Source: Spirosoma rigui (GTDB lineage: Bacteria > Bacteroidota > Bacteroidia > Cytophagales > Spirosomataceae). From it: DNA of 64,000 nt. How positions within the stretch are numbered: position 1 is the first letter of the stretch; the number at the start of each line of letters is the position of its first letter. The notes below the pieces were generated by a model, which worked only from the letters and a program-made list of their open reading frames with translations, made no database searches and was not told the DNA's origin. The translations under genes and the position numbers were made by a program. The stretch is from the NCBI RefSeq assembly GCF_002067135.1, contig NZ_CP020105.1, positions 1,364,001-1,428,000 of the forward strand, given 5' to 3'. Shown here in pieces: positions 4,912 to 8,985 of the stretch.

Positions 4912-6897
4912 ATGGCTAAAGTTGTTATCCTTGGAGGGGGCGTTGCCGGATTGAGCGCAGCCCATGAACTGATTGAGCGCGGTTTTGCGGTTGATGTCTA
5001 CGAGAAAAAACCGCTTTACCTTGGTGGCAAAGCCCGGAGTGTGAACGTTCCCGGCTCCGACCCGGACGACCCCCAGGGACGTAGTCCGGAGGCCCCTGGC
5101 CGTAGTGAGCGGTCGCTCCCCGGCGAACACGGATTCCGCTTTTTTCCCGGCTTCTACCGGCATATTACCGATACCATGAAACGGATTCCGTTCACGGACG
5201 CAACGGGCCGTAAAAACGCGCTGGGTGTTTTCGACAACCTCGTTGATGTGAATCGGGTCGGTATTATGCAGAACGGTAAAAAGCCGATTGTCACCATCGT
5301 CAGTTTCCCCAAATCGCTGGCCGATATCGAAGCGGCTCTGTCCGTGCTACACCAGAGCCATGATACCCAACTGCAACAGGGCGAAGCCCGATTCTTTGCG
5401 GGTAAGGTCTGGCAACTAATGACGTCCTGCCGACGCCGGCGAGAACTGGAATATGAAAAAGTGGGCTGGTGGCAGTTTATGGATGCCGATAACCACAGCA
5501 ACGCTTACCGGCATCTGCTGGTGGAAGGACTTACGCGTACCCTCGTAGCGGCCAATGCCAAACTGGCCAGCACCAAAACGGGGGGCGACATTTTTATTCA
5601 GCTGCTGTTTAACATCGCCAACCCGGGCATGCACACCGACCGAGTACTCAACGGCCCCACCAACGAAGTCTGGCTGAAGCCTTGGGAGGATTACCTGGTT
5701 AGCAAAGGTGTTCGGTTTTTCAAGAGTGCACTGGTGCGGGAGGTGGTCTGTACTAACGGGAAAGTAACATCGGTTCGCATCCAGGACTGGCAGAATCCAG
5801 AGCATACGTTTCCGCCCGCGCAGGGCGATTTTTACCTGCTGGCGACACCGGTAGAAGTCACGGCTACTCTGTTGTCGGAGGAGGTCAAGGAGAACATCGG
5901 CAGTTTACAGGGAATTGACGATCTGGTGAAAGATACGGCTTGGATGAATGGTATTCAGTTTTACTTGAATGTGGAGCTGGATGTAGTGAAAGGCCATTGC
6001 ATCTACGTAGATAGCGAATGGGCGCTGACGTCCATTTCGCAGTTGCCGTTCTGGGATGGTTACGACATGACTCATCGGGGTACCGGCAGGGTGAAAACGA
6101 TTCTGTCGGTTGATATTTCGGACTGGGATGCGCTCAGCCCCGCCGGAAACGGATTTCCCGAGCCCATGAAAGCAAAGGACTGTACCACTTTCGACCAGAT
6201 CAAGGATCGTGTCTGGGTGCAGCTCCAGCGCAGCCTGCTGGACAATAACGGGCAACAAATTCTAAAGTCGGACATGCTGGAGGGTGTTTATGAGGATCAT
6301 GGTACGCCGTATCACGGCTACTACCTCGATCATTCGCTCAATGAGCAGCAGCCCCCTACGGCCGCCGACCCCAAGGCTTCCACGGTAGGCGAAGCGCCCG
6401 CCGACCCGTCGGTGCTGATCAACCACGAGCCGTTGCTGGTCAATACCGTAAATAGCTGGGCCAAACGACCTGATGCGTTTTTGCCGGGTATTCCTAACTT
6501 GTTGCTGGCATCGGACTACGTCCGGACCAATACCGACCTGGCCACGATGGAAGGGGCTAACGAAGCCGCCCGCCGGGCCGTAAACTGCATCATTGACCGG
6601 AGTGCTGACCAACCCGACATCGACCATCGTCCCTGTCAGATCTGGGATCTTCACGAACCGGCTTTCTTCGTGCCCTTCAAATGGTACGACGCCTGGCGCT
6701 ACCGGAAAGGAATGCCGTACCGAAAACCGCCGGGCTGGTTCGATGCCCTGATGGTCGTCTGGGGTGTTATATATGGCAGCTGGTTTCTGCTCTATACCGC
6801 TTGGACCGCCCTGACTTCCTGGGGAAAACCCGCTTCAAAAGCTCCTGTCAAATCGTCCGTCAAGCCATTGCCAACCCATGAGCCAACCCCTGCTTAA
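4912..6897 (+). CDS. FAD-dependent oxidoreductase, hydroxysqualene dehydroxylase/phytoene desaturase-like
   Basis: A 661-residue flavoprotein of the amine oxidase/carotenoid desaturase superfamily. The N-terminal dinucleotide-binding loop is G8-G-G-V-A-G13 with the ribose-binding E31, and 'YLGGKARSV' follows as in squalene and phytoene-modifying enzymes. 'GEHGFRFFPGFYRHI' (near residue 65) is typical of proteins annotated as hydroxysqualene dehydroxylase. The C-terminal flavin motif is 'LASDYVRTNTDLATMEGANE'. Unusually, a hydrophobic segment (about 612-637) near the C-terminus suggests a membrane anchor. The last 20 bases overlap the start of the seven-helix protein, implying co-translation. 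It probably acts on a polyprenyl or squalene-type lipid; the exact substrate is inference. Confidence 0.8.
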   Translation: MAKVVILGGGVAGLSAAHELIERGFAVDVYEKKPLYLGGKARSVNVPGSDPDDPQGRSPEAPGRSERSLPGEHGFRFFPGFYRHITDTMKRIPFTDATGRKNALGVFDNLVDVNRVGIMQNGKKPIVTIVSFPKSLADIEAALSVLHQSHDTQLQQGEARFFAGKVWQLMTSCRRRRELEYEKVGWWQFMDADNHSNAYRHLLVEGLTRTLVAANAKLASTKTGGDIFIQLLFNIANPGMHTDRVLNGPTNEVWLKPWEDYLVSKGVRFFKSALVREVVCTNGKVTSVRIQDWQNPEHTFPPAQGDFYLLATPVEVTATLLSEEVKENIGSLQGIDDLVKDTAWMNGIQFYLNVELDVVKGHCIYVDSEWALTSISQLPFWDGYDMTHRGTGRVKTILSVDISDWDALSPAGNGFPEPMKAKDCTTFDQIKDRVWVQLQRSLLDNNGQQILKSDMLEGVYEDHGTPYHGYYLDHSLNEQQPPTAADPKASTVGEAPADPSVLINHEPLLVNTVNSWAKRPDAFLPGIPNLLLASDYVRTNTDLATMEGANEAARRAVNCIIDRSADQPDIDHRPCQIWDLHEPAFFVPFKWYDAWRYRKGMPYRKPPGWFDALMVVWGVIYGSWFLLYTAWTALTSWGKPASKAPVKSSVKPLPTHEPTPA

Positions 6898-7564
6898 CCT
6901 GCGCAACTATACACCACTCGAGCTGATCACGTTCGGCGTTGGATGTTTCCTCTGGATTATGGTGTATTTCTATACCCTGCGGAGCCTCCGGACAAAGCAG
7001 TTCATTGAGATTCCCATTGTCACCATCACGGGTAATATTGTCTGGGAGTTTTTGTGGAGCTGGGTGTTCGTAACCGATATGGGTAGCCTGTTTATGTGGG
7101 GCTACCGGATTTGGTTTTTTATGGACTGCGTCATCGTATACGGCGCTTTCCGATACGGCTACAAGCAGATCTCGATTCCAACCCTGTCGAAGCGAACCCC
7201 CTGGTTGATGGTATTCGGGATAGCAGCCTGGGCACCGGCTCTATACTACTACATCAAATTATATGACGCGCCCATCAGCCATATGGGGGCCTATTCGGGC
7301 TATATTCTTAACGTCATGATTTCGGCCACCTACATACCGCTGGCTTTGCGGCTGTGTGACTGGAGCTTATTTTCGTATCCGGCCAGTTGGTGCAAGGCCA
7401 TCGGTAATCTGCTCATTAACCTATTCTGCTTTTTACACTTTACCGATGGTTTTTTGCTTTCCCTGTGTGTATTAACGACCGTTTTTGACGTAATTTTCAT
7501 CTACCTGTTCACTGTTGCCCGCCGGCAGTTTGCTACAAGCACTCAAAAGGCCATTCCTGCATGA
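6878..7564 (+). CDS. Seven-helix membrane protein, Pyr4/PaxB terpene cyclase-like
   Basis: This 228-residue protein is almost entirely hydrophobic with about seven predicted helices. 'GNIVWEFLW' (residues 52-60, E57) at the end of helix 2 and 'VFDVIFIYLF' (D204) in the last helix resemble the essential Glu and Asp of Pyr4-family integral membrane terpene cyclases, whose length (about 240) and spacing are similar. The match comes from memory of the family, not from an alignment. It overlaps the flavoprotein by 20 bases and the histidine kinase by 4, so all three are likely translated together. Alternatives are an uncharacterised 7TM sensor or carotenoid-modifying protein. Confidence 0.5.
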   Translation: MSQPLLNLRNYTPLELITFGVGCFLWIMVYFYTLRSLRTKQFIEIPIVTITGNIVWEFLWSWVFVTDMGSLFMWGYRIWFFMDCVIVYGAFRYGYKQISIPTLSKRTPWLMVFGIAAWAPALYYYIKLYDAPISHMGAYSGYILNVMISATYIPLALRLCDWSLFSYPASWCKAIGNLLINLFCFLHFTDGFLLSLCVLTTVFDVIFIYLFTVARRQFATSTQKAIPA

Positions 7565-8985
7565 CCGCGACTGCATTTTGGAAGACGTATCTCTGGAACC
7601 ATCTGGGCTTTACCGGCCTGGACAGCGAAGAGTACAACCGACGCACCACCGCTGTTCAACTGGGTTTTTTTACGGCAATTTCCGGACTCATTTATTCGCT
7701 CATCTACGTCTGGCTGGGGTTTCCGGGTATGACGGTGCCGTCACTTACGTATGTCGTGCTATTTTTTCTGGCGCTGGGCTACCTGGCTCTGACCCGAAAA
7801 TTTCACGTGTACAAGTATATTCAACTGGGACTGATTTTACTGCTCCCGCTGGCTAACCACCTCTACGTAGGTGGATTTGTTGAAAGCAGCGTCGTTATCC
7901 TGGCGAGTTTTATTACCCCCGTCATTGCCCTGACGTTCGTAAGCCGAAACACATCCCGGCTTTTCTTCTACCTGTTCATTGCCGTTATTCTCATCGGTGG
8001 TCTTTGGGAGCTGTTCATCTTCCCCCCCGCAAGGCAGTTGCCCGATTTCGTTATCTCGACCTTTTTTACGGCCAACATCATCTTTATTTCGGTAATTATT
8101 TACCTGCTGATCGATGGTTTTCTTAAAAAACAGGAGGAACTGCGTCGCGAACTACGGCAGTCGCTGGATACACTTCGTACTACGCAGAATCAGCTGATCC
8201 AGGCCGAAAAAATGGCTAGTCTGGGCGAGCTGACAGCGGGTATTGCCCACGAGATTCAAAACCCGCTCAACTTTGTCAATAACTTCTCCGATGTTTCGGT
8301 CGAGTTGCTCGATGAGTTGACCGATGAGCAGCAAAAAGCGGAGCGTGACCCGGGTCTGGAAGCCGATCTACTGGCCGATTTGCGGCAGAACCTCCAGAAA
8401 ATTGCGCAGCACGGCGGGCGGGCCAGCAGCATTGTACATGGTATGCTCGAACACAGCCGGACCAGCACCGGCCGGCGCGAACCCACCGATATTAACATCC
8501 TGGCCGAAGAATATTTTCACCTGGCCTATCATGGTCTGCGGGCCAAAGACGAGAACGTAGCAACGGGGCGCTTCAGCTGCGAGCTGGTCCGGAACTTTTC
8601 CCCCAACCTGGGGCTGGTTACGATCGTCCCGCAGGATATTGGCCGGGTATTGCTTAACCTGTTTAACAACGCGTTTTACGCCGTACGGCAGCGCCAGAAA
8701 TCGGCACTGGCCGGTTACCAGCCTACCGTTACGGTCAGTACCGTTCTGGGCAAAGACACGGTCGAAATCCGGATCGCTGATAACGGGTCGGGCATCCCTG
8801 AATCGGTAAAGGATAAAATCTTTCAGCCTTTTTTCACTACCAAGCCCACCGGTCAGGGTACGGGTCTGGGGCTTTCGCTGAGCTACGACATCATTACAAA
8901 AGGGCACCTGGGGGCGTTGCTGGTTCACAGTCAGGAGGGGCAAGGCTCCGAGTTCGTCATTCAGTTACCCATAACCCCGGCCTGA
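7561..8985 (+). CDS. Membrane sensor histidine kinase
   Basis: The 474-residue kinase has about six transmembrane helices (residues 33-185), a short coiled coil (188-216), a HisKA dimerisation domain with the phospho-acceptor H230 in 'AGIAHEIQNPLN', and a HATPase domain with the N box 'LLNLFNNAFYAV', G1 'IADNGSGIPE' and G2 'GQGTGLGLSLSY'. It belongs to the common Bacteroidota class lacking PAS and receiver domains. No response regulator lies nearby, so the partner must be encoded elsewhere. The 4-base ATGA overlap with the seven-helix protein suggests that it senses something produced or bound by the two preceding proteins. Confidence 0.9.
   Translation: MTATAFWKTYLWNHLGFTGLDSEEYNRRTTAVQLGFFTAISGLIYSLIYVWLGFPGMTVPSLTYVVLFFLALGYLALTRKFHVYKYIQLGLILLLPLANHLYVGGFVESSVVILASFITPVIALTFVSRNTSRLFFYLFIAVILIGGLWELFIFPPARQLPDFVISTFFTANIIFISVIIYLLIDGFLKKQEELRRELRQSLDTLRTTQNQLIQAEKMASLGELTAGIAHEIQNPLNFVNNFSDVSVELLDELTDEQQKAERDPGLEADLLADLRQNLQKIAQHGGRASSIVHGMLEHSRTSTGRREPTDINILAEEYFHLAYHGLRAKDENVATGRFSCELVRNFSPNLGLVTIVPQDIGRVLLNLFNNAFYAVRQRQKSALAGYQPTVTVSTVLGKDTVEIRIADNGSGIPESVKDKIFQPFFTTKPTGQGTGLGLSLSYDIITKGHLGALLVHSQEGQGSEFVIQLPITPA

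Follow-up and report, generated by a model that had tools for sequence, protein, structure and literature searches.

A Pyr4-family membrane terpene cyclase of Spirosoma rigui in a conserved gene cassette with signalling proteins

The three-gene block

We analysed a stretch of 64,000 nucleotides from Spirosoma rigui (contig NZ_CP020105.1, positions 1,364,001 to 1,428,000 of the forward strand), hereafter the window, in which a gene for a Pyr4-like membrane terpene cyclase is preceded by a gene for a flavoenzyme and followed by one for a histidine kinase with a six-helix (6TM) membrane domain. Comparative evidence that the block is a conserved signalling cassette is strong, and it is this cassette, as predicted from sequence comparison, that is the finding here, while the annotation of the cyclase itself is already in databases. 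The features are, in window coordinates:

4912..6897, + strand: flavoenzyme of the amine-oxidase/desaturase type, dependent on flavin adenine dinucleotide (FAD), 661 amino acids, likely isoprenoid-oxidising, first gene of the cassette (Pfam; conserved upstream of the cyclase)
6878..7564, + strand: Pyr4-like transmembrane terpene cyclase, 228 amino acids (PF25129; seven long helices in the AlphaFold2 model; conserved catalytic residues)
7561..7564, + strand: ATGA stop/start overlap of the cyclase and kinase genes (gap -4)
7561..8985, + strand: sensor histidine kinase, 474 amino acids (HATPase_c 8.4e-21, HisKA 3e-7; conserved downstream of the cyclase)
7561..8145, + strand: sensor domain of the kinase, 6TM (also carried by SpoIIE outputs; distribution in the genus)

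The flavoenzyme and cyclase genes overlap by 20 nucleotides, and the ATGA overlap would couple translation of the cyclase and the kinase. The order of the three genes is kept in records of Spirosoma, Fibrella, Dyadobacter and Adhaeribacter and in one Cytophagaceae metagenome-assembled genome (MAG), the identities being 48-74% (flavoenzyme), 53-76% (cyclase) and 53-68% (kinase). In a Bacteroidia MAG (locus L011) the third protein has a SpoIIE phosphatase as output and therefore matches the kinase in the membrane part only (28%).

The flavoenzyme matches the Pfam families Amino_oxidase (5.7e-10) and NAD_binding_8 (1.1e-8), in agreement with the initial annotation, which had described the gene before the cyclase as a squalene/carotenoid-type flavoprotein. 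Its best NCBIfam match is HpnE, a member of the same FAD desaturase-like superfamily whose name, hydroxysqualene dehydroxylase, NCBI gives to several of the relatives; we rejected this identity for the window protein, as it scores 67.7 bits against a cut-off of 283.05. A search of PDB with the flavoenzyme gave no match at E<=1e-3.

The membrane terpene cyclase

The initial annotation had proposed a likeness of the protein at 6878-7564 to the fungal Pyr4-family cyclases, and profile searches bear it out. The open reading frame (+ strand, ATG start) matches the Pfam family PF25129 (Pyr4-TMTC) with 43.9 bits against a curated cut-off of 27 (E 3e-11), and the only other Pfam row, QCR10 (0.062), is under its own cut-off; the protein is thus placed in PF25129 and not in an unrelated seven-helix family. 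The NCBIfam profiles gave no match to it. As also noted at the outset, the 228 residues form about seven helices: the AlphaFold2 model, built on a 100-row alignment, has a mean predicted local distance difference test score (pLDDT) of 94.9 and a predicted template modelling score of 0.88, with long helices at residues 13-39, 47-63, 70-97, 107-134, 138-159, 167-187 and 191-225 and an extra short helix at 101-104. Both size and topology fit a compact seven-helix membrane family of about 220-250 residues. Glu57, in the motif GNIVWEF, lies in helix 2 and Asp204, in VFDVIF, in the last helix. The PF25129 alignment covers residues 21-187, so that D204 lies outside the matched span and is backed instead by the alignment of relatives.

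A search with the protein yielded 161 homologues at E<=1e-3 and a more diverse profile 1635 relatives; among the matches whose descriptions were listed (the best 120 of each set), some relatives from Fibrella and Dyadobacter carry the NCBI name "transmembrane-type terpene cyclase". The host genome (5.83 Mb, one contig) has a single PF25129 member above the cut-off. We regard the assignment of the protein to the Pyr4 family, made by sequence, as sound. A sequence search of PDB with the cyclase returned three unrelated matches (best E 0.56), and a search with its profile returned none. The cyclase model resembles the folds of SWEET transporters, KDEL receptors and cystinosin, a hint that the fold of the Pyr4 family may be of the PQ-loop (transporter-opsin-G protein-coupled receptor) type; among the papers listed by a literature search on the fold, a terpene cyclase is mentioned in none.

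Catalytic residues

The window protein can be compared with DmtA1 from Streptomyces. According to PMC6173783, DmtA1 loses all activity in the variants E60A/Q, W29A, W59A and Y33A/F, is poorly active as N56A and nearly inactive as D214A, remains partly active as D214N and keeps some activity as Y217F; E60 is the proposed acid, and D94 and E133 are also important. We mapped the positions other than D94 and E133 onto the window cyclase by spacing, which is identical to that of the published DmtA1 positions (W-4-Y-23-N-3-W-1-E), and not by a sequence alignment with DmtA1. Conservation was counted over 58 rows of what we term below the signalling clade, the window cyclase included:

6953..6967, + strand: codons of W26 and Y30, in helix 1, matching DmtA1 W29 and Y33 by spacing (58/58 each)
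7034..7048, + strand: codons of N53, W56 and E57, helix 2, by spacing DmtA1 N56, W59 and E60 (57, 57 and 58 of 58)
7487..7489, + strand: codon of D204, helix 7, counterpart of DmtA1 D214 (Asp in 55/58, Asn in 3/58)

The distance between the two acids is 147 residues, compared with 154 in DmtA1. Position Y217 of DmtA1 is occupied by F207, with Tyr in 47/58 relatives and Phe in 11/58. D83 is kept in all 58 rows and in all 23 rows on the other side of the cyclase tree, where the mapped residues are also mostly the same (E57 in 21/23). By analogy with DmtA1, E57 would initiate cyclisation by protonation, with D204 assisting. The window protein thus shares with the known Pyr4-like cyclases (fungal Pyr4; bacterial DmtA1, XiaH, TylF, GroF and ZigF) the profile match, the size, the seven helices, and the essential Trp, Tyr, Asn, Trp and Glu at the same spacing with a later Asp.

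Bacterial members of the family have been mined by Kakumu and Helfrich (2026; PMC13307353), who reported 1107 candidates, of which 264 were left after requiring terpenoid genes nearby, and who characterised ZigF in addition to the known XiaH, TylF and GroF. The initial annotation had proposed a membrane terpene cyclase pathway outside actinomycetes. A bacterial Pyr4-like family member is indeed present here, but its occurrence outside Actinomycetota is not itself new, since PMC13307353 assigns 69% of the 264 filtered sequences to Actinomycetota and the rest come from elsewhere. The 843 candidates set aside in that work may include proteins of the signalling clade. Among the open-access papers listed by our literature searches, none linked Pyr4-like cyclases to signalling.

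Genomic context of the cyclases

Of 392 genomes sampled across the phylum, 21 contain a PF25129 match above the cut-off; of 390 genomes of the order, 57 contain one at E<=1e-3, in 55 of them above the cut-off. Within the genus, the window cyclase finds a relative in 6 of 36 genomes. From these surveys we assembled a census of 83 cyclase loci (numbered with L; genomes with G), with flanks from most survey places and classified neighbours. The phylum survey contributed 17 of its 20 places outside the window (all but those in G036, G229 and G244), and the order survey 55 of its 61 places (without the window, two loci already in the set and three short fragments). Eight loci (window included) and three more of the genus were chosen by likeness to the window protein. 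Genes were called mechanically and neighbour families were labelled with profiles built on seeds from the same loci; of 24 labelled genes submitted to Pfam, 23 were confirmed, the exception being a "GGR" label in L044, where only FAD-binding domains were found.

In an unrooted tree of 81 cyclases (the short L046 and L056 were left out and assigned to sides by context) a branch with a Shimodaira-Hasegawa-like approximate likelihood ratio test value of 100 splits 58 rows from 23, or 59 loci from 24 with one fragment added to each side. In the larger group, here the signalling clade, which includes the window, the upstream neighbour is a FAD enzyme in 26 of 59 loci and an MpaB/Lcp-type oxygenase (PF09995, confirmed in L050, L052, L104 and L126) in 23, i.e. 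one or the other in 49/59. A signalling protein lies directly downstream in 44/59, and 40/59 have both oxidase and output. On the other side of the tree not one of the 24 loci has a directly upstream oxidase or a directly downstream signalling gene. As a background, a signalling protein lies downstream in 33 of 401 other codirectional neighbour pairs of the same loci, or in 23 of 384 without the kinase-rich L048-L050; the pairs are not mutually independent, and a Fisher test on them serves as a guide only. The 55 loci of the order survey, which the Pfam profile had selected regardless of likeness to the window, give the same picture on their own: 41 belong to the signalling clade, with an oxidase in 35/41, an output in 28/41 and both in 27/41.

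Four kinds of output occur, namely histidine kinase, SpoIIE phosphatase, adenylate cyclase and giant Ser/Thr kinase. The FAD enzyme is paired with a kinase in 12 loci, with SpoIIE in five, with a giant Ser/Thr kinase-SpoIIE protein in two and with an adenylate cyclase in one, and MpaB with a kinase in 12, SpoIIE in five, a giant kinase-SpoIIE protein in two and a giant kinase-adenylate cyclase protein in one. Accounting for these labels on the cyclase tree takes 10 changes of the upstream enzyme and nine of the output type. UbiA genes adjoin three of the 83 cyclases (L039, L044 and L102; Pfam-confirmed), all on the other side of the tree; there is no UbiA-type prenyltransferase beside the window cyclase or adjacent to those of its clade, for which a UbiA-type meroterpenoid cluster was therefore rejected. 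The clade thus differs from the known Pyr4-like cyclases in being tied to signalling proteins and not to UbiA prenyltransferases, as judged from a tree without characterised members among its rows.

The six-helix domain

The model of the 6TM domain contains six long helices after one short one (pLDDT 70.9). In the genus this domain occurs in exactly the five of 36 genomes that have the FAD-type cyclase. The domain is shared between kinase-type and SpoIIE-type outputs (blastp 2e-20 to 5e-34; hhalign 99.9%), and a related second set, next to either oxidase, occurs with outputs of the kinase, SpoIIE and adenylate-cyclase types (hhalign 89-99.6%), so that related domains are combined with three types of output, but not in every cassette. 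As merged profiles the two sets match each other with 97%. The stretches compared were excised around a motif located by pattern matching; L101, one of nine MpaB-kinase rows, dropped out. A single-linkage grouping of the sensor N-termini united 35 of 37 but does not keep membrane domains apart from linkers, and it was not used as evidence. In a VIA comparison with the pLDDT 70.9 model the top rows are adenylyl-cyclase membrane domains; Foldseek with this model gave no match below E 0.48.

A two-gene form occurs in G396 and G397 of the same genus (loci L157 and L158), which have no cyclase match: a relative of the flavoenzyme (39-40% identity) is followed, 5 and 14 nucleotides on, by a kinase-type 6TM protein. 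Its membrane domain matches the second set, most closely the profiles of MpaB-kinase (98%) and FAD-SpoIIE (97%) and the others less well, and the flavoenzyme family is thus tied to such sensors even without the cyclase.

Proposed function and alternatives

The reading of the locus as a pathway, first made from the flavoenzyme upstream of the cyclase, stopped at that gene and missed the 6TM histidine kinase downstream. This kinase, together with the swapping of outputs among relatives, points to a signalling cassette and not to an ordinary natural-product pathway. Enzyme families that oxidise isoprenoids and cyclise them by protonation lie beside a receptor-like domain with a swappable output, which is explained most simply if the ligand of the receptor is the product of these enzymes. 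We therefore consider it probable that the block is a terpenoid synthase-receptor cassette, in which the flavoenzyme (replaced by the MpaB/Lcp-type oxygenase in other loci) would oxidise an isoprenoid, the cyclase would cyclise the oxidised form as described above, and the lipophilic product would bind within the 6TM domain of the kinase as its predicted ligand. The substrate would be a housekeeping polyprenyl, a squalene/phytoene-type or a quinone-type lipid. The host genome has one squalene/phytoene-synthase-type gene and two polyprenyl synthases and gave no match to a squalene-hopene cyclase; the substrate is therefore probably a general isoprenoid lipid, which is a guess because the cassette showed neither a prenyltransferase nor a polyprenyl synthase.

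The closest parallels in arrangement are the autoinducer pairs CqsA/CqsS and LqsA/LqsS, in which a synthesis gene likewise stands beside a kinase with a six-helix membrane domain; CqsA and LqsA, which are alpha-hydroxyketone synthases, make the signal. The window has the same juxtaposition of a biosynthetic gene and a 6TM kinase, with a 4-nucleotide overlap, Pfam-supported kinase domains and six long helices in the model. According to PMC4821796, receptors of the CqsS/LqsS type take lipophilic ligands, and CqsS is a 6TM histidine kinase whose ligand, CAI-1, can also drive an adenylyl cyclase onto which the membrane domain of CqsS has been transplanted. The proposed cassette would work in the same way with a terpenoid in place of CAI-1. 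It differs from these pairs in having a terpene cyclase with a flavoenzyme or oxygenase and, among relatives, four kinds of output; the systems are likened by arrangement and not by the sequence of the 6TM domains. The other point of comparison is the 6TM domain of membrane adenylyl cyclases (human AC9 and AC8, mycobacterial Cya), from which the window domain, at the pLDDT given above, differs in being carried by a kinase and tied to predicted lipid-modifying enzymes. The function of the adenylyl-cyclase membrane domains is debated, and the title of PMC12414865 speaks of a "signal transduction blind spot".

Several observations weigh against the proposed cassette. Besides the absence of a gene for substrate supply, the 6TM model is of middling confidence, and six of the eight single comparisons between the two 6TM sets remain under 3%. 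The receptor varies, with 7TMR-DISM domains in L103 and L126, and the 6TM profile finds nothing on the giant kinases. Distant relatives of the 6TM domain occur away from any cyclase in at least 13 of the 390 order genomes, seven of which have a cyclase elsewhere; up to seven candidates were scored per genome in this survey, so that its counts of weak matches are lower bounds. D204 is replaced by Asn in three of 58 rows, and the mapping covers six residues, leaving the counterparts of DmtA1 D94 and E133 outside it. By the census rule, 15 of the 59 clade loci have no directly downstream signalling gene: the contig runs out at or close to L049, L056 and L130; the kinase of L114 is encoded on the opposite strand; in L103 a sensor of the 7TMR-DISM type is followed by SpoIIE, in L140 a cytochrome P450 by a 6TM-SpoIIE protein, and in L133 and L137 a FAD-type enzyme by SpoIIE; L108, L116, L117, L118, L119, L121 and L125 have no signalling gene at all.

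Histidine kinases are often linked to biosynthetic genes, and the block might instead be an ordinary natural-product or membrane-lipid operon, with the terpenoid as end product and a linked sensor that reads an outside cue and switches the pathway. The three other-side cyclases beside UbiA prenyltransferases, an arrangement as in meroterpenoid pathways, speak for such operons in the family. In the clade of the window, however, outputs such as adenylate cyclase and SpoIIE have no direct action on genes, related sensor domains persist across exchanges of the output, and no other widely shared gene family was seen (in the first 31 loci, most neighbours being unannotated); we consider this account unlikely. 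Still more doubtful is a role of the modified isoprenoid as a bound cofactor or chromophore of the receptor, the unit sensing light, oxygen or redox state. The swapped oxidases do come from families acting on carotenoid/squalene-type or rubber/prenyl substrates, and a membrane helix bundle with an isoprenoid recalls, by analogy only, the rhodopsin systems. No rhodopsin or carotenoid-cleavage family is, however, among the Pfam matches of the three window proteins, and nothing points to light. As to lysines, the sole one kept in at least 85% of the cyclases, K96, lies at the end of helix 3, and in the kinase domain the sole one invariant over nine rows is K190, located in the final long helix and apparently past the membrane. 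A reading as rhodopsin was dropped, since the profile and fold matches point elsewhere.

It is very improbable that the seven-helix protein is a former enzyme that now serves in the signalling clade as a membrane receptor or transport subunit passing a signal to the kinase. All six mapped residues relevant in DmtA1 are retained at the frequencies listed above, and most of them are also conserved across the tree's other side; although the window protein has F207 at the place of Y217, the corresponding variant of DmtA1 kept some activity.

In its wider form, the proposed synthase-receptor cassette would belong to a modular terpenoid-hormone system that exists in Bacteroidota and also in at least one Leptospiraceae MAG. 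Its exchangeable isoprenoid oxidases and Pyr4-family cyclases would make native ligands of adenylyl-cyclase-type six-helix receptors that feed kinases, cyclases or phosphatases; we put this forward tentatively, as a generalisation that may well not hold. If true, signalling would be a further role of membrane terpene cyclases, which are known from natural-product pathways, terpenoids would become another class of bacterial signal lipid, and for a receptor fold with ligands still in question the loci would supply natural sets of synthase, ligand and receptor, with a bearing on the unsettled role of the adenylyl-cyclase six-helix domains. Because a domain of apparently adenylyl-cyclase type is here genetically tied to predicted ligand-making enzymes, the ligand could be searched for directly by way of two or three genes.

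Variants of the cassette

The cassettes of the signalling clade show further variation. A FAD-type enzyme of a different kind follows the cyclase in L133, L116 and L137, and L108 has a thiamine pyrophosphate enzyme. In L012 the MpaB gene is three genes on, on the opposite strand, and in L115 it is one gene further upstream. The cytochrome P450 gene of L140 (4791-6137, - strand), between the cyclase and 6TM-SpoIIE genes, encodes an apparent extra tailoring enzyme inside a sensory operon. In L012, L013, L040, L043, L115, L134 and L135 the cyclase is followed by a giant Ser/Thr kinase (1668-1783 amino acids); these proteins end in adenylate cyclase, SpoIIE or kinase domains, and their kinase, AAA and GAF domains were confirmed by Pfam in L012, L043 and L134. 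Beside the cassette of L110 (8594-10011, + strand) are genes for a 124-residue response regulator and a 348-residue receiver-adenylate cyclase protein (Pfam-confirmed), a pair that may link the kinase to a cyclic nucleotide output; genes of similar lengths are also present in L005, L053, L101 and L122. On the other side of the tree, cyclases without signalling partners are found in L041, L042, L045-L047, L055, L057, L058 and L089-L098, some of them near a gene for a FAD-binding reductase-like protein.

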